64,000 bases of DNA from Sneathiella limimaris. Its GTDB lineage: Bacteria; Pseudomonadota; Alphaproteobacteria; Sneathiellales; Sneathiellaceae. The notes beneath the pieces are model-generated. The model was not told the origin of the DNA and did not search any database. It saw nothing but the letters and a program-made list of their open reading frames with translations. The DNA is taken from positions 2,108,001 through 2,172,000 of the forward strand of contig NZ_JABBYJ010000001.1 in assembly GCF_012932565.1 (NCBI RefSeq). Reading direction: 5' to 3'. The translations under genes and the position numbers were made by a program. Below are positions 31,492-40,805 of this stretch, in pieces (position 1 is the stretch's first letter; the number at the start of each line of letters is the position of its first letter).

Positions 31492-33135
31492 TTAGGCTGC
31501 CAATGTTGCAAGGCGCTGCTTAGGAAGAATGACATGAGCGCTTGTTCCAACCCCAAGCTCGCTTTCCAATTTGAAGTATCCACCATGGGCTTCTGTCAAC
31601 AGCCGGACAAGACTTAATCCAAGCCCAGTTCCTTGATGGTTGCGATTATAGGTAGAATGGATCTGTCCAAATTGGGTCTGAACATGATCGATATATTCCT
31701 GCGCAATCCCGATGCCGTTATCTGTTACGCTGAACATGATATCTCCGTCAGGCAAGTAGGAGATTGATGTTTTTACATAACCTTCTCGGTCAGTAAATTT
31801 GATTGAATTTGACAGGAGGTTTGCAAGGATCTGCTTGATCCGAGTTGGGTCCGCATGCAGAAGAGGGGCTGGGTCAGGGCAGTCAACAATGAGCTCAATT
31901 TCGCGTTTTTGAGCTGGTACGGAAATCATTTGAACACAGCTATCCAAGATCGCCCGAACATCGATTTCCTGTTCGACAAGGTTTACCTGGTTGGCCTCAA
32001 TTTTAGCCACATCCAGAATGTCGTTGATAACCTGCAAAAGGTGGGTGCCGGCTGCATTTACATCTGCTGCGTATTCTTTGCGTTTTTCTTTGTCCACAAG
32101 AGAATAGTCATCCATCATCAGCAGCTCTGAAAATCCAATAATCGCATTCAAGGGTGTTCGGAGTTCATGGCTCATGTTAGCCAAAAACTGGGATTTGGCT
32201 TTACTTGCCTGTTCCGCATCTTCCTTGGCTTTACGAAGTTCCTGCGTCCGCTCCTCAACCTTTTCCTCAAGTAGCTCAGCATTATGACGCAGTACGTCTT
32301 CAGCTTTCTTCTGATCAGTTACATCGATGAAGGAAAACAGCATACCGCCGGGAATGCTTTCTCGTCGGGAATGTAGATATCGGCCATCGGGGAGTTTTCG
32401 GATTTTGTCGAAGGATTCAAAATTCTCAATACTGCTTTTTAACTTGCTGAATTTCTCGACCGAGAATTCTTCACCAATATCTTTGTCTTTATACACCCGA
32501 TCAACAAAGGCACTAATATGGGTTCCCTTGACTTTTAGGTCTTTGGGGAACCCCATGATTTCAAAGAAATATTCATTCCACAGCGATAGTCTTAAATCTT
32601 CATCAAACAAAGCAAGACCAGTGTGAACGTTCTGCACGACGGTTTCTAGAGTGGTTGCTTTCTCGGATAGTTCAATTCGCCTTTCGGCGAGTTCCATTGT
32701 CCGCTGACGAACTCGTTCATCGAGCTTATTATTTGTGTCTTCGAGTTCTTTTCGGGATTTTGAAAGCTCAGTAACGTCGGAATATGCCGTAATGAAGCCG
32801 CCTGTCGGGAGGGGGTTTCCGACAATCTTAATAACGGTTCCATCTGGTCTCACACGTTCAAAAGAATGGGCCTCCCGTTTTTCGGTCAGTGCCATTCGTT
32901 CTGCAACTTGCTCCTCGACATCTCCAGGTCCATATTCCCCTCGCTCAGCATTAAAGCGAAAAACCTCACTGATATGGGTTTTGCCGGAGACCATTAAGTC
33001 TGGTGGCAAGTCGAGAATGTTGAGGAATTTTAGATTGACGAATATCAGGTTGAAGTCAGCGTCTGTTACGCTGATCCCATGGTCGAGATATTCCATACAA
33101 ATGTGCGTTAACTCAGGCCCCATAAACTGTGACAC
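31492..33135 (-). CDS. PAS sensor histidine kinase without receiver
   Basis: A 547-residue soluble kinase. Two PAS domains of the 'DHGISVTDADFNLIFVN' (about residues 18-130) and 'VHTGLALFDEDLRLSLWN' (about 170-290) kind, a coiled-coil linker, then HisKA with SHELRTPLNAIIGFSELL (phospho-His near residue 325) and HATPase with LLSNSIKFTD and GTGLGLSLV. Unlike the kinase at 3371 it has no receiver domain. The PAS_5 gene follows in the same orientation. Confidence 0.92.
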   Translation of the reverse strand: MSQFMGPELTHICMEYLDHGISVTDADFNLIFVNLKFLNILDLPPDLMVSGKTHISEVFRFNAERGEYGPGDVEEQVAERMALTEKREAHSFERVRPDGTVIKIVGNPLPTGGFITAYSDVTELSKSRKELEDTNNKLDERVRQRTMELAERRIELSEKATTLETVVQNVHTGLALFDEDLRLSLWNEYFFEIMGFPKDLKVKGTHISAFVDRVYKDKDIGEEFSVEKFSKLKSSIENFESFDKIRKLPDGRYLHSRRESIPGGMLFSFIDVTDQKKAEDVLRHNAELLEEKVEERTQELRKAKEDAEQASKAKSQFLANMSHELRTPLNAIIGFSELLMMDDYSLVDKEKRKEYAADVNAAGTHLLQVINDILDVAKIEANQVNLVEQEIDVRAILDSCVQMISVPAQKREIELIVDCPDPAPLLHADPTRIKQILANLLSNSIKFTDREGYVKTSISYLPDGDIMFSVTDNGIGIAQEYIDHVQTQFGQIHSTYNRNHQGTGLGLSLVRLLTEAHGGYFKLESELGVGTSAHVILPKQRLATLAA

Positions 33136-33250
33136 AACTAGTTTCCCCTCTAGAACTCTACGCGTAAATCAAACTGCAATTTGTCCAGGCGCCAGAGCTT
33201 AGTTGAAAAACCCTAAAATTGTCCTAACAGTAGGGAGGGTTAACGTAGGG

Positions 33251-34024
33251 TTATTCAGGAGTTTCCAAGTTGACCCAAATGGGGGTGTGATCAGAAGGTT
33301 TTTCTTCGCCCCGGGGGCCTTTATCAATTCCAACCTCTGTCATCATGTCGAGGGCCTGCGGAGAGAGCAGCAGGTGATCAATTCTGATGCCATGATCTTT
33401 TTGCCAAGCGCCCCTTTGATAGTCCCAATATGTATAATTTACATCTGGGGTAAAGCTGCGATAGGCATCCGCATATCCAAGCCCCAATAATTGTCTAAAT
33501 CGGTTACGGCTTTCTGGCTGGGTGAGGGCGTCGCCCTGCCATTGTTTTGGATCGTAGCAATCTTCATCCTGAGGAATGACATTGTAGTCTCCGGCCAAGA
33601 TTATCGGAGTTTCACTTTCCAAAAGACTTTTGGCATGCTTGATTAGCCGATCCATCCAATTCAGCTTGTATGGAAATTTTTCTGTCTCAATTGGATTTCC
33701 ATTTGGCAGATAAATAGAGGCAATGCGGAGCCCTTTAATGGTGGCTTCAATGTAGCGTGCCTGTTCATCAGTGTCGTCCCCGGGTAGATCCTTCATCACA
33801 TCCTCAATCGGGTGTTTGGAAAGGATGGCGACACCATTGTAGGTTTTTTGCCCGAAGGTTTCGACATTGTAGCCTAGTGCCTCAACCTCCTCGCGGGGGA
33901 AATTTTCATCTATGCATTTCAATTCCTGAAGGCACAGGACGTCGATCTGACTTTTCTCGAGATAGTCCGTTAAACGTGGCAAGCGTGCTTTCACGGAATT
34001 CACGTTCCAACTGGCGATTTTCAT
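33251..34024 (-). CDS. xth: Exodeoxyribonuclease III
   Basis: A 257-residue AP endonuclease/3'-exonuclease. Family motifs: MKIASWNVNSVKARLPRL at the start, 'LQELKCIDENFPREEVEALG', 'LAGDYNVIPQDEDCYDP', and catalytic His in SDHTPIWV near the end. Length is normal. Repairs abasic and oxidised sites. On the same strand as erpA but with its own ATG and no obvious operon link. Confidence 0.93.
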   Translation of the reverse strand: MKIASWNVNSVKARLPRLTDYLEKSQIDVLCLQELKCIDENFPREEVEALGYNVETFGQKTYNGVAILSKHPIEDVMKDLPGDDTDEQARYIEATIKGLRIASIYLPNGNPIETEKFPYKLNWMDRLIKHAKSLLESETPIILAGDYNVIPQDEDCYDPKQWQGDALTQPESRNRFRQLLGLGYADAYRSFTPDVNYTYWDYQRGAWQKDHGIRIDHLLLSPQALDMMTEVGIDKGPRGEEKPSDHTPIWVNLETPE

Positions 34025-34107
34025 GACGTCTTCCCTACAGGCGAGATTGATAGAAACATCCCATTGATGACCAATTTAGGCTTTTATTTCAAGGATGTTT
34101 ATTGAGT

Positions 34108-34455
34108 TTAGACGGAGAAGGAAGACCCGCAGGAGCAAGAAGCTGTTGCGTTAGGATTGCGGATTTGAAAGGCTGCACCAATCAGATCGTTCACATAGTC
34201 AACTTCTGAGCCAGCAAGATAGAGGAGCGATACGCTATCAACCAATAAAGTTGCGCCTTTATTTTCCACAACCGTATCATCTGGATTCTGGGTATCGTCC
34301 AAATCGAAGCTATACTGAAAACCGGAGCAGCCGCCACCATTTACGGCCACGCGCAGCATCTTCTTGTCAGCGTTCATTTCCTGAACAATGGCATTAATGC
34401 GATCAGCGGCAGAATCTGTAAGTTTGACAGGTGGTTCCATGATTTCCTGAGCCAT
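34108..34455 (-). CDS. erpA: Iron-sulfur cluster insertion protein ErpA
   Basis: A 115-residue A-type carrier. Ligand cysteines in VNGGGCSGFQY and the C-terminal NATASCSCGSSFSV. It delivers [Fe-S] clusters to apoproteins. Genomic position opposite to and just before an argS-type gene is the usual alphaproteobacterial setting, although dgt, which often lies between them, is absent here. Confidence 0.94.
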   Translation of the reverse strand: MAQEIMEPPVKLTDSAADRINAIVQEMNADKKMLRVAVNGGGCSGFQYSFDLDDTQNPDDTVVENKGATLLVDSVSLLYLAGSEVDYVNDLIGAAFQIRNPNATASCSCGSSFSV

Positions 34456-34571
34456 ATTGAATTGCGTCCCACGGGACGGAATTTAAGTTCACTTCGGATC
34501 TTAAGTCACTATGATGTATTTATCCAAAGCCCTTTTGTCAATTCTTCAACCGTCAAGGAGATGTCGCACGA

Positions 34572-35591
34572 ATGTCCGAATATTACTGGACAGAGCTCAG
34601 AAGTTGTTTGATTGAGGCCCTCAAATCTCAACTCACCGGCGATGAGCAGACGGTGGAAGGGATTATAAGCCGACTGACCTTGAGACCCCCAAAAAACAGT
34701 CATTGGGGTGATCTTTGCACGAATGCGGCTCAGTTGTGTCAGAGCGTATCTTCTGAAACTTGTTTATTGGCAACGGATTTGATCCTCGAAAAGATAAGAA
34801 AGCACGAGGCTGTCAAGTCCGTGGATCTGGCAGAAAGTGGGGATATCAACATAACCTTAAAACAGGAAAAGATGGTTCAGGAGTTACCAAAGGTCATTTC
34901 TTCTGGCGTTCGGTACGGCTTGTCATCCTTAAAACCCCATTGCACTCCATTGATTGTTGAGGTTCCGGACGAAACCCATGATCTTTTAGCCTTGCGGCAG
35001 CTTTGGACGGCCAACTATCTGAAAAAGTTTGCGGATCTGATTGGGTTAGAAGCGACAGAAAGTGCCTGGACCCCCGGCGAGTTGCAGGGATACCCTGCTG
35101 AGGCTGCCTTGGCAAAATGTGGTGAAAGTCGGTTGCGACTTGCCCTTTTCGCAAACGACAAGGATTTTGCAACACACTTCAGCCCAGTACTCGCCGTGGA
35201 TCGAACCTATTCGAACCCCGTTTTTGCACTTCTTTATGCTGAAGCGCGACTGAAGAGATATTTAAGAAATGGAGTTCCTCTGGATGCTCAGAAGGAGGGA
35301 TCAACTTTACCGTTGGCAATAGAGCGGGAATTGCTTGTTTTGGTAACCGAATGGCCGCAAGTAATCCGACTAACGCTAAGAGACCAAGACATGGTTAATT
35401 TCGTCTCTTTCCTCCAGCGGTTAAGCCTGCTATTTTTCCGATTAAATGATGAGGAAAAACTTCAATCATCTGAATATTTTCAAGATTCTGATTCTGGAAT
35501 TTTGCGATTACAGTTGCTTGGAGCCGTCAGAACCCTTCTAACAGCTGGACTGGATCTGATGGATGTTGAGAGGCCAGAGGAGTTTATTTAG
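34572..35591 (+). CDS. ArgRS-like protein lacking the catalytic core
   Basis: A 339-residue intact frame. Residues ~1-110 match the arginyl-tRNA synthetase N-terminal additional domain (LRPPKNSHWGDLCTNAA near 37-53; SGDINITL near 89-96). Residues ~210-339 match the DALR anticodon-binding domain (SNPVFALLYAEARL near 214-227; 'LLTAGLDLMDVERPEE' at the end). Between them, where ArgRS has HVGH, the Rossmann core and a KMSKS-type loop, only about 90 residues remain; LIVEVPDETHDLLALRQLW occupies the HIGH position without its His/Gly. About 220-250 residues are missing against the usual ~560-600. It cannot aminoacylate by the known mechanism, yet the frame is clean and its stop overlaps the next gene's GTG by one base. 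Confidence 0.82.
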   Translation: MSEYYWTELRSCLIEALKSQLTGDEQTVEGIISRLTLRPPKNSHWGDLCTNAAQLCQSVSSETCLLATDLILEKIRKHEAVKSVDLAESGDINITLKQEKMVQELPKVISSGVRYGLSSLKPHCTPLIVEVPDETHDLLALRQLWTANYLKKFADLIGLEATESAWTPGELQGYPAEAALAKCGESRLRLALFANDKDFATHFSPVLAVDRTYSNPVFALLYAEARLKRYLRNGVPLDAQKEGSTLPLAIERELLVLVTEWPQVIRLTLRDQDMVNFVSFLQRLSLLFFRLNDEEKLQSSEYFQDSDSGILRLQLLGAVRTLLTAGLDLMDVERPEEFI

Positions 35592-36535
35592 TGAGTGATA
35601 ATCACAGTTTTGATGACGACGACGATTTTTTCGATGACGAGTATGTGCCGACGATGAATCGTTGGAAACTGCTGGGCGCAGCGTTGGCGCTGGTGATTAT
35701 CACAGGGTTTGGGATTGGCATTTGGTACGCCTACGATCAGGGCGTAAAAAAGGGCGTGCAGTTGGCGCCGCCCATTATCAAAGCCGATGACTCCCCGGTC
35801 AAAGAACAGCCCGAAGATCCGGGGGGGATGGATATTCCCCATCAGGACAAGAAAGTTTTCAATGTCCTGAACGGAGAGGAAAATACGGAAGAAAAAGTTG
35901 AAAAACTGATGGAGCCGCCTGAGCAGGTAGTGGAAGAAGCTGCTCCGGTTGATATCAAGGAAGATCCTGCTGTCAAAAAGCCTCTGGAGAAAGAAACTCT
36001 GATGGCAAAGGAAGAGCCAACTGAGGCGATGACCAAGACAGAGGAAGCCGCTACCACTGAAGTGACGTCGGCAGTTGAAGAAAAATCAGAAACCGTTATG
36101 GCGGAAAAGCCAGCCGATAATATTGAAAAAGCTGCTGAAATGGTCGAGAAAACCGAAGAAAAGGCAGTCGAAACGGTAGAAAAGAAAGCTGAGGAAACGG
36201 CACAAAAAACAGAAGCTGCACCCAAACCGGTAGCAGAAGCGGCTCCAAAAACTCAACCAACAGAGGCCAAGGAAGCGCCAGCTGGCGTTGCGTTTCGGGT
36301 TCAGTTAGGTGCCTTCCGGTCTGAGGATGCGGCCAAGAAAGCATGGCGAGACTTACAGAAGAAGCACGAAGGGTTGCTGGCAGGCGAGGTCTATAAAATT
36401 CAGACTGCAGAGGTCACCGGGAAGGGGCTGTTCTATCGGTTACAGGCTGGAGCTTTTGAAGACCGATCGAAGGCTGCAGAACTCTGTGATCAACTCAAGG
36501 CTCGAAAGCAGGACTGCCTCATTGCCAAAAACTGA
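35591..36535 (+). CDS. SPOR-domain cell-division-type protein
   Basis: A 314-residue inner-membrane protein. Cytoplasmic N-terminus rich in Asp, one membrane helix near residues 27-47 (LLGAALALVIITGFGIGIWY), a long acidic, Lys/Glu/Ala-rich linker in the periplasm, and a C-terminal SPOR domain (VAFRVQLGAFRSEDAAKKAW; LFYRLQAGAFEDRSKAAELC) that binds denuded peptidoglycan at division sites. It starts with GTG overlapping the preceding stop, so translation is coupled to the ArgRS-like gene. Confidence 0.88.
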   Translation: MSDNHSFDDDDDFFDDEYVPTMNRWKLLGAALALVIITGFGIGIWYAYDQGVKKGVQLAPPIIKADDSPVKEQPEDPGGMDIPHQDKKVFNVLNGEENTEEKVEKLMEPPEQVVEEAAPVDIKEDPAVKKPLEKETLMAKEEPTEAMTKTEEAATTEVTSAVEEKSETVMAEKPADNIEKAAEMVEKTEEKAVETVEKKAEETAQKTEAAPKPVAEAAPKTQPTEAKEAPAGVAFRVQLGAFRSEDAAKKAWRDLQKKHEGLLAGEVYKIQTAEVTGKGLFYRLQAGAFEDRSKAAELCDQLKARKQDCLIAKN

Positions 36536-37574
36536 TTATGATGGCGTGCGATCTGTCATCTTCTCGATTGAGGGGACAGAGATAACTGACCAAGAGCGAA
36601 GATTTTTTGAAACGGAAAAACCTTTTGGTTTCATACTTTTCGCTCGGAATGTTGAGAGCCCGCCACAACTTCAGAAGCTGACGTCAGAGTTACGGGCATC
36701 TGTGGGCCGACCTGATGCCCCTATTTTGGTGGATCAGGAAGGGGGGCGTGTCCAACGGCTTCGGGAGCCGCATTGGTTTAACGCACCATCCTTTGGTAAA
36801 ATCTCTGAACTCTACACCAAAGATGTAAGGGCTGGCCTGAGGGCGGCTGAGCTATCCACTCAACTTATTGCGGCCGATTTAAGGGCGACTGGCTTTTCCG
36901 TCAATTGCAGCCCTTGTTTGGACCTGAGACGGCCTGAGACTTCCTCTGTGATTGGGGATCGCTCCTTCGGTGAGGTCCCTGAGGAGGTCATTGAACTTAG
37001 CCGGATAGTTATCGATGGCTATCTGGAGGCCGGTATCCAACCCGTTATTAAGCATATGCCTGGCCATGGACGAGGGACGGTTGATAGTCATCTTGAATTG
37101 CCTGTCGTTTCGGCTTCTCATGAGATCCTTAGTGGTTCGGATTTTCTGCCGTTCAAGGAGTTCAATTTCTGTGCATGGGGAATGACGGCTCACATCGTAT
37201 TTGATGCTCTCGATCCAGAAAACCCGGCGACCCAGTCACCTAAAATCATTCAAGAGATTATCCGCGGGGAAATTGGGTTTGAAGGGCTGTTACTCACCGA
37301 TGATCTAAATATGCAGGCGTTGAAAGGAACTCTTGAAGAGCGGGCCGCTAAGTCTATCTCAGCAGGGGTAGATATTGTTTTACATTGTTCGGGTAAGCTG
37401 GGCGAAATGGAAGCCGTCGCCCCTGCATGTCCATTCCTCGGTCATGAGACTTTAGGTCGAATTGAAAGATGGGAGCAGAACAGCCTGTTGAACAGAGACG
37501 GTGATTCTGTTGCGGCGGATTTGGTCCAGATGCGCCGTGAGTTGGAAGGTCTGCTCGGGCAGGGTGAGGTTTGA
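36522..37574 (+). CDS. nagZ: Beta-N-acetylhexosaminidase
   Basis: About 350 residues, glycoside hydrolase family 3, which removes N-acetylglucosamine from cell-wall turnover fragments. Motifs: ILVDQEGGRVQRLREPHW, KHMPGHGRGTVDSHLELPVV (catalytic His-Asp dyad) and LLTDDLNMQAL (nucleophile Asp). I choose TTG 36522, eight bases after AGGA and 14 bp inside the SPOR gene; GTG 36546 is the alternative. An ATG-started longer frame from 36309 would overlap the SPOR gene in another frame and is unlikely. Confidence 0.92.
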   Translation: MPKTDYDGVRSVIFSIEGTEITDQERRFFETEKPFGFILFARNVESPPQLQKLTSELRASVGRPDAPILVDQEGGRVQRLREPHWFNAPSFGKISELYTKDVRAGLRAAELSTQLIAADLRATGFSVNCSPCLDLRRPETSSVIGDRSFGEVPEEVIELSRIVIDGYLEAGIQPVIKHMPGHGRGTVDSHLELPVVSASHEILSGSDFLPFKEFNFCAWGMTAHIVFDALDPENPATQSPKIIQEIIRGEIGFEGLLLTDDLNMQALKGTLEERAAKSISAGVDIVLHCSGKLGEMEAVAPACPFLGHETLGRIERWEQNSLLNRDGDSVAADLVQMRRELEGLLGQGEV

Positions 37575-38263
37575 TGGAGAATTTGTCCGATATCATCTGG
37601 GTTGCCTCCACTTGGATATTGCCTGCCTTGCTGGCAATTACCCTACATGAAGCGGGCCACGCATTTGCTGCCTGGAAGTTTGGGGATCCAACGGCTAAAA
37701 ATCAGGGTCGGGTAACCCTCAATCCTCTTAAACATATTGACCCCATGGGAACAATCATCCTTCCAGCTATCTTATTGCTGTTGAAGGCACCGTTCTTGTT
37801 TGGGTATGCAAAACCGGTTCCGGTGAATTTTGGACGCTTAAATAATCCCAAACGGGATATGATCTGGGTCGCGCTAGCGGGTCCAGGTATGAATTTCCTA
37901 CTGGCTTATGTCTGCGCTATAGGGATCCATGGTCTGGTTCTGTTTCCAGAATTGGCCAGTAACTGGTTGCTGGCAAATCTGGCCAATGGACTTCTACTGA
38001 ATGTGGTTCTGGGCGTGTTTAATCTGCTACCTATTCCGCCGCTTGATGGTGGAAAGGTTGCCGTTGGGATTTTACCAAACTTTTTGGCTATTCAGCTTCT
38101 CAAGTTGGAGAAGTATGGATTTTTATTCCTGATCGGGGTGATTTTCATTCTGCCCATGATTAGCCGGGCGTTAGGATATGAGCTGAACCTGCTTCGCTGG
38201 GTGCATGATGGGCCCATCAGCTTTGTAATCTCCCTGATTGCCAAGACTGTCGGTCTTCACTAG
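37574..38263 (+). CDS. Site-2 protease family (M50) membrane metalloprotease
   Basis: About 229 residues with several membrane helices. The zinc motif is in LLAITLHEAGHAFAAWKFGD (HExxH) and the third ligand in NLLPIPPLDGGKV. Intramembrane cleavage of unknown substrates. The ATG overlaps the nagZ stop by one base, showing tight operon coupling. Confidence 0.9.
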   Translation: MENLSDIIWVASTWILPALLAITLHEAGHAFAAWKFGDPTAKNQGRVTLNPLKHIDPMGTIILPAILLLLKAPFLFGYAKPVPVNFGRLNNPKRDMIWVALAGPGMNFLLAYVCAIGIHGLVLFPELASNWLLANLANGLLLNVVLGVFNLLPIPPLDGGKVAVGILPNFLAIQLLKLEKYGFLFLIGVIFILPMISRALGYELNLLRWVHDGPISFVISLIAKTVGLH

Positions 38264-38298
38264 ACTTTCCTCATTGAAAACAGGGGAGCAGAAGACCG

Positions 38299-39111
38299 AT
38301 GGACAAGTCCAAAGGCCTTTTTGAAAAATCGGAAACGTTTGAACAGGATGAACGTCCAGTTCCTGTTGATTATGCCCTTGTTGTGGATCTGGAAGGGTAT
38401 GAAGGTCCCCTCGATATCCTATTGGCACTAGCCCGTGACCAAAAAGTGGATCTGCTTAAGATCTCAATTTTGCAACTGGCCGAGCAATATCTGGCTTTTA
38501 TTGAGGAAGCCCGCAAACTTCGTCTTGAAATTGCAGCAGATTACCTTGTCATGGCAGCCTGGCTGGCTTTTTTGAAATCCCGACTGTTGCTGCCCCCTGA
38601 AGAAACAGATGAAGGACCTTCCGGTCAGGAAATGGCGGAGCGACTTGCCTTTCAATTGAAAAAGCTGGAAGCCATGAGAAAGGCAGCAGAACAGCTCACA
38701 GGTGGCATGATGACGGGGCGTGATCGATTGCGTCGCGGCCGGCCAGAAGGGGTTAAGGTTATCCGCCATTCCAAATATGATTGCAGCCTTCGCGAGTTGC
38801 TGCAGGCTTATGCACAGCATCAGGAGCGCAAAGGGATCCGCAACCCACTACGGCTGATGCGTGAAGCGGTTTACTCCGTTGAAGCAGCGCTGGAGCGGCT
38901 GGAGAATATGCTGGGCAAAATGCCAGACTGGATGGATCTATGGTCCTATTTGCCAGAGAACCTGAAAGATCCCTTTACCAGACGCTCTGCGGAAGCCTCA
39001 ACTCTTCTTGCTAGTCTGCAGTTGGTTAAGGAAGGGGAGCTGGAGTTGCGTCAGTCAGAAACTTTTGGTCCTATTCAGATACGGTCCCATACCCGGAAGG
39101 AAGAGGAATGA
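38299..39111 (+). CDS. scpA: Segregation and condensation protein A
   Basis: A 270-residue kleisin subunit of the SMC-ScpAB condensin. N-terminal motif YEGPLDILLALARDQKVDLLKISILQL near residue 33 and WLAFLKSRLLLPPEE further on. Overlaps scpB by four bases (ATGA). No smc is in the window. Confidence 0.94.
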   Translation: MDKSKGLFEKSETFEQDERPVPVDYALVVDLEGYEGPLDILLALARDQKVDLLKISILQLAEQYLAFIEEARKLRLEIAADYLVMAAWLAFLKSRLLLPPEETDEGPSGQEMAERLAFQLKKLEAMRKAAEQLTGGMMTGRDRLRRGRPEGVKVIRHSKYDCSLRELLQAYAQHQERKGIRNPLRLMREAVYSVEAALERLENMLGKMPDWMDLWSYLPENLKDPFTRRSAEASTLLASLQLVKEGELELRQSETFGPIQIRSHTRKEEE

Positions 39112-39710
39112 GCGTAAATCCCGAACATGTCCGGATGGTAGAGGCGTTGTTATTTGCCGCAAAAGAGCCGCTTGATGAGGTTTCTTTAGCAGCGCGCCTT
39201 CCCGATGATGCGGAAGTGCCGGAAATCCTAAAGTATCTGGTGAAAGCCTATGAGCATAAAGGGGTGAACCTGATCCAACTTGCCGGGAAATGGACCTTTT
39301 TAACCGCTCCAGATCTTGCCTGGCTGTTACAGGATGAAAAGGAAACGGAGCGGAAACTGAGCCGCGCAGCGCTGGAAACCCTCTCTATTATCGCCTATCA
39401 CCAACCGATCACCCGTGCGGAGATTGAAGAAATCCGCGGCGTAGGTCTTAGTCGAGGTGTGATGGATATCCTGTTTGATGCTGGTTGGATCCGTCCGCGT
39501 GGACGCAGAAGAACGCCAGGTCGTCCTGTGACCTATGGCACGACGGAGGAATTCCTGATCCATTTTGGCCTTGATGATGTCCGTGATCTTCCCGGTTTTG
39601 ACGAGATGAAGGCGAGCGGCCTGTTGAATATGGAGCCGAGTGGGCTGTTTGATGACATCCCTGGAGTTGAAGCCGCTACTGAGCTCGATCCTGAGGAAGA
39701 AGAGGACTGA
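39108..39710 (+). CDS. scpB: Segregation and condensation protein B
   Basis: A 200-residue winged-helix partner of ScpA. Motifs 'MVEALLFAAKEPLDEVSLAARL', 'RAALETLSIIAYHQPITRAEI' and 'GRRRTPGRPVTYGTTEEFLIHFG'. The stop abuts the convergent GNAT gene with no gap. In relatives tatABC normally follows; here four unrelated genes intervene. Confidence 0.94.
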   Translation: MSVNPEHVRMVEALLFAAKEPLDEVSLAARLPDDAEVPEILKYLVKAYEHKGVNLIQLAGKWTFLTAPDLAWLLQDEKETERKLSRAALETLSIIAYHQPITRAEIEEIRGVGLSRGVMDILFDAGWIRPRGRRRTPGRPVTYGTTEEFLIHFGLDDVRDLPGFDEMKASGLLNMEPSGLFDDIPGVEAATELDPEEEED

Positions 39711-40238
39711 TCAAAGGTTAAGGTACATGTAGCTGGTGGGAACCAGTTTGTCTGTATCAGGCTCTTTGGCAAACCCAGGTATAATTCCTGCTAGCTGAAA
39801 CCCATGTCCTTCGTAGAGGCGCTGTGCCGGACTGTCGGTAACAGTATCCAGTGTAACCAGGTTTTTGCCCATCGAGTTTGCTCGCTCAATCAGAACCCGC
39901 ATCAGCTTATCCGCGATACCGAGCCTTCTGTAGTTTGGATGGACCAGCAGTTTGGTCACTTCTGCACGATGGATTTGGTTAGGGGTGAGTTTCTTGATTA
40001 ACTGAACGGTCCCGGCAAGTTTGCCATCTTGTAGGGCTATCCAACAGTCTCTTTCATTCCTTTGAAGAGCTGGTAGGGCGTTTTCTATCCAGTAGGCTTC
40101 TGCCTCTTGCAGGCTGAACGGCAAAATGAAATTTACATTCGCGCCTGCTTCGACACAGGCTTTCAAGCAACCAGATAGATCCGCCACGAAATCGGGAAGG
40201 CTGTCGGCGTTTAATTCTTTAATTTCCAAATTCGTCAT
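39711..40238 (-). CDS. GNAT-family acetyltransferase
   Basis: A 175-residue GNAT enzyme with RAEVTKLLVHPNYRRLGIADKLM as the acetyl-CoA site and 'LVTLDTVTDSPAQRLYEGHGF'. Ends immediately adjacent to scpB and begins 13 bp after the XRE-cupin gene on the same strand, suggesting a small operon. Confidence 0.86.
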   Translation of the reverse strand: MTNLEIKELNADSLPDFVADLSGCLKACVEAGANVNFILPFSLQEAEAYWIENALPALQRNERDCWIALQDGKLAGTVQLIKKLTPNQIHRAEVTKLLVHPNYRRLGIADKLMRVLIERANSMGKNLVTLDTVTDSPAQRLYEGHGFQLAGIIPGFAKEPDTDKLVPTSYMYLNL

Positions 40239-40250
40239 GGATCGAAGCCT

Positions 40251-40805
40251 TTATACAAGAGCAAGAATATATGTGGCTGCGGAGCCAGCAGGGGTTTCAA
40301 AGCGGGTGGGGCCAAAACTGTGATATCTGAGGCTATCACCAGCATTCAGGGTGTAGGAAATTTCGTCTACGGTGACGGACAGGGAGCCGTCCAGCAGATG
40401 GAGGTGATGTTCAAGGCCTGGCAGGCTTGGTTTGTCATATGCGATGACTTGCCCCGCTTCAATTCGGCATTTTAGAAGCTCTGCTTTCAGCGACTGTGAA
40501 GGGGGCGATACAGATAGACGATAGAATCCCTTTTCCCTATCTCGCCATTCAGGTTGATCTGAGGCTGAAACTTTGGCGGTAAAGCTGTCTTCGACCATGG
40601 AGAGCAGTCTTGAGAGGGTGAGACCATAAGCCGCACAGAGTTTACTGAGGATATCAGTTGTGGGGCTAACCTCACTATTTTCCATACGCGAGAGGGTTGC
40701 CCGGCTGATGCCTGTTTCCTGGGCTAACTGTTCCAGCGACCAGCTTTTCTCTGCGCGTAAGCTTTTTAGCCGTTTTGCCAGTCTCGAGCCTAAATCTTCC
40801 TGCAT
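40251..40805 (-). CDS. XRE-cupin transcriptional regulator
   Basis: A 184-residue regulator. Residues ~8-62: HTH with WSLEQLAQETGISRATLSRME and 'LSKLCAAYGLTLSRLL'. Residues ~110-180: cupin domain (CRIEAGQVIAYDKPSLPGLEHHLHLLDG). The class often senses small molecules or metals. A 21-bp near-palindrome 37 bp upstream suggests autoregulation. It could control the downstream GNAT gene and, divergently, the ABC transporter. Confidence 0.88.
   Translation of the reverse strand: MQEDLGSRLAKRLKSLRAEKSWSLEQLAQETGISRATLSRMENSEVSPTTDILSKLCAAYGLTLSRLLSMVEDSFTAKVSASDQPEWRDREKGFYRLSVSPPSQSLKAELLKCRIEAGQVIAYDKPSLPGLEHHLHLLDGSLSVTVDEISYTLNAGDSLRYHSFGPTRFETPAGSAATYILALV

Follow-up and report, generated by a model that had tools for sequence, protein, structure and literature searches.

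The gene at positions 34572 to 35591 on the plus strand of a 64,000-nucleotide stretch of the Sneathiella limimaris genome (the window) is, judged from profile scores and gene position, the vertically inherited alphaproteobacterial gene for arginyl-tRNA synthetase (ArgRS), argS, whose function has been taken over by an ArgRS from a different lineage. We consider the chances about even that the displaced gene has been kept as a core-less protein that docks on tRNA-Arg without charging it, serving as an adaptor or regulator, and that it probably also couples translation of the SPOR-domain gene behind it. This would be the displacement of an essential enzyme caught while the replaced gene is still there and seems to have found a new use, and it comes with matched controls, namely relatives with an intact argS in place, relatives that have the replacement and have dropped argS, and one family with a core-less argS. 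It offers a concrete test system for the transition from a synthetase to a non-catalytic protein, and it points to a gene that could well be labelled a truncated ArgRS by automatic annotation.

The core-less gene and its product

The frame begins with ATG, continues for 339 codons without any internal stop and ends with TAG, and the sequence AAGGAG precedes the ATG by 11 bases. The TAG has one base in common with the GTG start of the SPOR gene, confirming both the intact frame and the one-base overlap described in the original prediction. Alignment to 12 syntenic ArgRS from the class (class ArgRS) and an AlphaFold model place the ArgRS N-terminal additional domain at residues 1 to 122 (34572 to 34937), and the DALR anticodon-binding domain occupies residues 216 to 339 (35217 to 35588). 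Pfam DALR_1 (PF05746) matches residues 220 to 337 with an E value of 4.5e-8 (33.6 bits, cut-off 22.3), and it matches all 21 members of the short family at E ≤ 0.001. The ArgRS N domain (PF03485) matches residues 9 to 96 with 18.1 bits, slightly below its cut-off of 21.5, and is found in 14 of the 21 members at E ≤ 0.001; fold comparison and profile alignment are in line with an N domain here. Between the two domains lie a remnant of the Rossmann core (residues 123 to 175, 34938 to 35096), which is supported by the alignment and is a strand-helix-strand unit in the model, and a post-scar segment (residues 176 to 215, 35097 to 35216). Together the remnant and the linker span residues 123 to 215, close to the roughly 90 residues that had been estimated for the core from the sequence alone, and the predicted limits of the flanking domains were also about right.

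When the 21 short proteins were aligned to the 12 class ArgRS with hhalign, the match covered residues 2 to 337 with a probability of 99.9% and an E value of 5.8e-31. Residues 2 to 164 fall on template positions of about 18 to 180 and residues 176 to 337 on about 427 to 600, and the approximately 246 template residues between these blocks face only residues 165 to 175, in scattered small islands. The deletion scar (residues 164 to 175, 35061 to 35096) stands in place of this part, and the gap starts after the HIGH helix and takes in the KMSKS stretch. Where the HIGH motif would be, the protein reads HDLLALRQ (34977 to 35000), with HDLL (H136 to L139) at the HIGH position itself, and the predicted loss of both motifs is borne out by the profile alignment. 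The product is like alphaproteobacterial ArgRS (argS, TIGR00456) in its origin, gene position, DALR domain, N domain as judged from fold and alignment, and remaining fold, and differs from it in lacking HIGH, KMSKS and about 246 core residues. PF00750, the catalytic domain that carries HIGH and KMSKS, does not match it, and its TIGR00456 score of 41.6 bits is under the cut-off of 261.65.

Origin of the core-less gene and of the working ArgRS

The surroundings of scpA were compared in 15 loci hand-chosen from 30 genomes, which included a sister genus of Sneathiellaceae (genome G024), some genomes without and some with a nearby ArgRS. A full-length argS (575 to 766 residues) stands before the SPOR gene, or before nagZ, in 12 of the 15, exactly where the core-less gene is found and as the original prediction had expected of this context; in two loci (L093 and L099) SPOR was not detected and argS precedes nagZ. 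The other three loci contain the short form (G024) or no argS (G028 and G039). A hidden Markov model built from the 12 class ArgRS matches all 21 short proteins at 55 to 103 bits, and one built from 22 full-length ArgRS of the family matches just 4 of the 21, at no more than 16 bits. A tree was built on 327 shared columns from the 12 class ArgRS, 6 ArgRS of Sneathiella's own type, 8 replacement-type ArgRS from other families and the 21 short proteins; in it the short proteins including that of G024 form a single clade (support 100), and the own-type and replacement-type ArgRS form a separate clade (support 100, branch length 1.9). Because long branches separate both clades from the class ArgRS, the main evidence that the short proteins descend from the class type comes from profile scores and gene position. 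The original prediction had called the gene an ArgRS paralogue; its derivation from ArgRS stands, and rather than a copy of the working ArgRS gene it is argS itself, inherited by vertical descent.

A full ArgRS was expected elsewhere, and the sole PF00750 match of the whole genome lies at 993323 to 994360 of the same contig (C1), about 1.15 Mb from the core-less gene, in a protein of 596 residues. This enzyme answers the objection, raised in advance in the original prediction, that no other argS might exist in the genome. PF00750 matches were found in 22 of the 24 Sneathiella genomes, the exceptions being G016 and G002, the latter 91% complete. At E ≤ 1e-90 the own-type ArgRS matches 28 of 190 genomes of the class, 25 of them outside Sneathiella (36 to 56% identity). 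Counting that of Sneathiella, 20 families of the class have such matches, and the scatter suggests either one old displacement or several transfers.

Conservation and constraint in Sneathiellaceae

Among 24 Sneathiella genomes, counting that of the window together with 23 relatives, 21 have the short gene, and the three in which it was missed (G005, G009, and G016) are 66, 65, and 56% complete assemblies. It is intact in 19 of the 21, with lengths of 327 to 348 residues; the G002 copy is broken across two contigs, and that of S. glossodoripedis (G008) is frameshifted close to its N-terminal end. G008 has a single full-length ArgRS (L082/L083), which is likewise split, into frames of 447 and 152 residues with one TAG, and the interruption of both genes suggests sequencing errors. 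The SPOR gene follows the short gene in all 20 genus loci read (L002 to L021), with a divergent erpA in 19 (absent from L014) and xth in 18 (absent from L009 and L014); xth and erpA were also seen in L022, from G002. The sister genus, also in Sneathiellales, has a diverged short form in the same place, with 21% identity to the window protein, which scored 52.7 bits against a short profile built without it and 68.7 bits against the class ArgRS profile. The core-less form is common to both family genera examined, most simply through one core loss in their ancestor. The conservation of the 339-residue form that the original prediction had proposed to look for was therefore found throughout Sneathiella and in the sister genus, and with 21 of 24 genomes and G024 carrying the gene, the assembly deletion that it had named as a possible undoing does not hold.

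Among the ten closest pairs, which come from five species only, the dN/dS of the short gene was 0.22 to 0.36, supplying a measurement that had also been proposed; in the same pairs it was 0.05 to 0.14 for SPOR, 0.01 to 0.07 for erpA, and 0.03 to 0.06 for xth. The gene is constrained, yet it is the loosest of the four compared and evolves faster than its neighbours. That rapid evolution and the S. glossodoripedis frameshift are what could be expected of a decaying pseudogene or an assembly deletion, a reading which we find scarcely credible given the predominance of intact copies, the split of the G002 copy over contigs and the probable sequencing errors in G008, the family-wide age of the form and a dN/dS well below 1.

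Predicted fold and conserved residues

The AlphaFold model of the window protein (20 sequences) has a pLDDT of 88.7 and a pTM of 0.87, and that of the G024 protein has a pLDDT of 81.5. In a Foldseek search of the PDB with the window protein, the best 20 matches were all ArgRS, with query TM-scores of 0.29 to 0.67 (0.52 to 0.67 in 16 of the 20) and large rmsd values of 7.6 to 24 Å, which indicate that the domains match and that their arrangement differs. Asn93 (34848 to 34850), in the GFIN motif of the N domain, is invariant in all 21 short proteins and all 12 class ArgRS. The dN/dS values, the confident model and this invariant Asn argue for a working non-catalytic protein. The pI is acidic in the short proteins (4.6 to 5.9 in 20 of 21) and is 5.0 to 6.4 in 11 of the 12 class ArgRS.

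Twenty-five columns are invariant among the short proteins of the genus, and 54 are conserved in at least 18 of its 20 members, 29 of these with the class consensus residue. Of the positions conserved in the class, 131 have a counterpart in the short proteins, and just 29 of these are retained in 16 or more of the 20. The N-domain motifs RPP..GDL..N and GYIN are kept. Thirteen genus-fixed columns (38, 137, 183, 195, 204, 208, 210, 221, 273, 280, 289, 302, and 303) differ where the class is conserved (at least 10 of 12), some of them by mild changes. G024 has three of these replacements (38, 210, and 221), which makes them mostly a genus-level feature; a new surface common to the whole family was considered and is not supported by so small an overlap. 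Pooled over the ten pairs, the regional dN/dS was 0.29 for the N domain, 0.23 for the core remnant, 0.17 for the post-scar segment, and 0.29 for the DALR domain. The post-scar segment, with the lowest value, also carries C183, N195, F199, S204, and Y213 as residues fixed at genus level (18 or more of 20) that depart from the class consensus.

These features bear on a somewhat unlikely alternative in which the protein, of the same origin, no longer binds tRNA and its fold has been reused for a protein-protein role, for example one tied to the SPOR/division operon that it heads. Such a role would fit the low dN/dS behind the scar and the replacement of class-conserved residues by C183, N195, S204, P221, F289, and Y302, several of them in the anticodon-binding domain, as well as the constant position of SPOR next to the gene, in 20 of 20 genus loci and in G024. 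It fits less well with the retained N-domain motifs, one Asn of which is invariant from short proteins to class ArgRS, and the operon position was inherited rather than newly formed.

Proposed role

What remains of the protein corresponds to the tRNA-holding parts of ArgRS, and tRNA-Arg binding, the first role suggested in the original prediction, is plausible from the domains retained and would be its likeliest activity. We take the Asn of the GFIN motif to be the reader of A20, and YVQYAHAR, with Tyr222, presumably has its role on the anticodon side. G024 and 19 of the 20 members of the genus have Tyr222, next to altered residues. Apart from it, only the Arg of YVQYAHAR is left, in some species, so anticodon recognition may be altered or lost. 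Also weighing against docking are the change of most ArgRS-conserved residues, the differing domain arrangement, the acidic pI, although class ArgRS are mostly acidic too, and an evolution faster than that of the neighbouring genes. PMC9976931 gives A20, in the D-loop, as the main arginine determinant in bacteria.

The reading that we prefer is tRNA-Arg docking by a displaced synthetase. An ArgRS of foreign lineage took over from the alphaproteobacterial argS standing before SPOR-nagZ-scpAB. The displaced gene apparently lost its catalytic core once, in the ancestor of the family, and its product has been kept as a constrained protein of 327 to 348 residues, predicted to fold, with the catalytic motifs gone. 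Such a protein could dock on tRNA-Arg without charging it, its N domain contacting the D-loop elbow and its DALR domain the anticodon stem, and might present, protect or sequester arginine tRNAs for another factor.

Relation to known core-less synthetases

The cut-down architecture is already known from the NCBIfam model NF045898, "ArgS-related anticodon-binding protein NrtL", whose 327 positions join the N and C parts of ArgRS without the core, as in the window protein. Residues 8 to 337 match model positions 5 to 326 in one stretch, with an E value of 9.9e-19 and 68 bits. Ordinary class ArgRS match the same model in two pieces, which mostly end at about 150 to 187 and restart at about 110 to 172, near the scar, and scores reach 108 bits with nothing but the N part of such an enzyme, so the match of the window protein is unspecific. 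Membership in NrtL was rejected, the 68 bits standing against a cut-off of 340 and some ordinary ArgRS matching better on one half than the window protein does over its full length. The model has a match in 370 of 385 genomes of the class, and in none of the 385 does a match exceed the cut-off. The loss of the core in the window gene was probably independent of NrtL, for which we found no account in the literature searched.

Among the matches listed for 380 non-Sneathiella genomes, we found no other core-less gene like that of the window. Extra matches to NF045898 are a second frame of 616 residues in G068, a piece at a contig start in G387 and a weak match in a 221-residue frame in G045, each of these three genomes showing three matches. 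Six ArgRS-matching frames of less than 450 residues were read among the matches listed (G026, G043, G137, G383, G406, and G531; a seventh, the 449-residue frame of G051, was left out), and core columns are present in all of them. Five run off the end of a contig or stretch, and G383 has a full ArgRS that is broken into a pair of overlapping frames. A plasmid search gave 16 records matching the core-less gene, none across more than 80% of the query.

To our knowledge, ArgRS has no editing domain. The truncated ThrRS-ed of some Archaea is, like the window protein, a synthetase stripped of its catalytic site that retains a different function, and according to PMC9976931 it recapitulates editing, unlike the ArgRS-derived protein studied here. 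Another analogy is DALRD3, which in PMC7237682 is reported from vertebrates only; it has a DALR domain without the synthetase catalytic motif, as in the window protein, and as an adaptor it binds particular tRNA-Arg with a methyltransferase partner, METTL2, in their m3C modification. By bringing METTL2 to tRNA-Arg, DALRD3 shows that such reuse exists (PMC7237682). By analogy, the window protein could be a bacterial counterpart of DALRD3, the old ArgRS, cut down after its displacement, serving as a dedicated tRNA-Arg adaptor with a new interaction surface at the scar that stands in for the former active site, in Sneathiella at least, and connecting the state of the arginine tRNAs with a partner enzyme or with the division/segregation operon behind it; we advance this only tentatively and regard it as rather unlikely.

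No earlier description of the Sneathiellaceae core-less ArgRS family was found in the literature searched. The titles and abstract openings of papers on ArgRS-like proteins and paralogues yielded no bacterial core-less ArgRS, no paper on Sneathiella and a tRNA synthetase was found in the literature searched, and nothing of use came from a search on DALR in connection with Streptomyces, lysA, and argS. In a review of duplicated synthetases (PMC9437257), "ArgRS" is absent and "arginyl" occurs once, in the reference list.

Relatives with the same replacement ArgRS

A profile search of the 25 non-Sneathiella genomes with the own-type ArgRS found no separate short gene. Thirteen of the 25 match the short profile, always inside a frame of 569 to 695 residues; G024 matched too, as a part of that profile. 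ScpA was found in 12 of 23 genomes tested and 11 of these loci were readable (L162 stops at a contig edge), giving, with G028 and G039, 13 readable control loci, and the 11 genomes without a ScpA match are outside this count. In all 13, argS is gone and SPOR kept, with dgt followed by SPOR and 34 to 219 bases between the ORF ends. No ORF in any of the 13 loci matches the short profile, and the class ArgRS profile gives weak matches (12 to 17 bits) to frames of 893 to 902 residues in L086, L154, and L157, presumably other synthetases.

The original prediction had also suggested a modulator of the other ArgRS. The core-less protein and the replacement ArgRS do co-occur in the same genomes, and domains that contact tRNA are retained in the former, both of which speak for an accessory subunit or modulator. 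This role is nonetheless disfavoured and in our view distinctly improbable, because the replacement ArgRS, with its 596 residues, is full-length in its own right and 13 other genomes with this type of ArgRS, all readable at the locus, have no short gene there.

Sneathiella is the mirror image of the control loci, having kept the argS remnant, with dgt located outside the interval between erpA and SPOR that it occupies in the 13 loci. A loss of dgt was ruled out, as a copy sits elsewhere in 14 of 15 Sneathiella genomes checked, with none in G005 (66% complete). In the genome of the window dgt lies at 70318 to 71568 of contig C1, and G010 has two copies. G024 has no dgt between erpA and the short gene.

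Operon context and translational coupling

Behind the core-less gene, on the same strand, are the SPOR-domain gene (35591 to 36535), a nagZ ORF (36309 to 37574) whose true start is probably further downstream, an M50-type site-2 protease gene (37571 to 38263), scpA (38299 to 39111), and scpB (39108 to 39710). The nagZ, scpA, and scpB genes have homologues in class loci and the M50 gene in some of them. The divergent neighbours on the minus strand are erpA (34108 to 34455) and xth, of the exonuclease III type (33251 to 34024), both also seen in the genus loci. The names nagZ, scpB, erpA, and xth and the M50 site-2 protease label are those that we presume for the window ORFs. An M50 gene between nagZ and scpA was matched by BLAST in L086, L090, L091, L097, and L100 and in none of the other ten of the 15 loci. 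An Rfam scan of 33000 to 40500 gave no matches, and a scan for promoters and terminators gave a level roughly equal to that of shuffled sequence.

A Shine-Dalgarno-like AGAGGAG (35576 to 35582) lies within the last codons of the core-less gene and encodes its conserved C-terminal Glu, E337. The GGAG is present there in all 20 genus loci and is absent from G024, and the stop overlaps the SPOR start by one base in 10 of the 20 and abuts it in 8; L004 and L009 differ in that SPOR could already start at a point further upstream. The 3' end of the gene holds a likely ribosome-binding site for SPOR and probably couples translation of the operon. On an account proposed in the original prediction, the gene is a translation-coupling leader in which only the act of translating the frame counts. 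The layout it relied on is real, and a Shine-Dalgarno sequence in the last codons would explain the conserved C-terminal Glu, but not the remaining conservation; on its own it leaves a constrained, folded protein unexplained. Residue selection acts across the whole protein, as the regional dN/dS values of 0.17 to 0.29 and the 25 invariant columns indicate, the fold is predicted again in G024 despite its divergence, and SPOR has been kept without argS in all 13 comparable loci, which makes a leader alone improbable.

A conserved stretch in the interval between erpA and the core-less gene, at 34511 to 34542, reads ATGATGTATTwATCC...TTTGTCAAT. TTGTCAA lies 31 to 37 bases upstream of the start of the short gene in 18 of 19 loci, the exception being L003, where the distance was measured from inside its gene. 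On the minus strand, 34511 to 34542 looks like a promoter for erpA that includes a TTGACA box.
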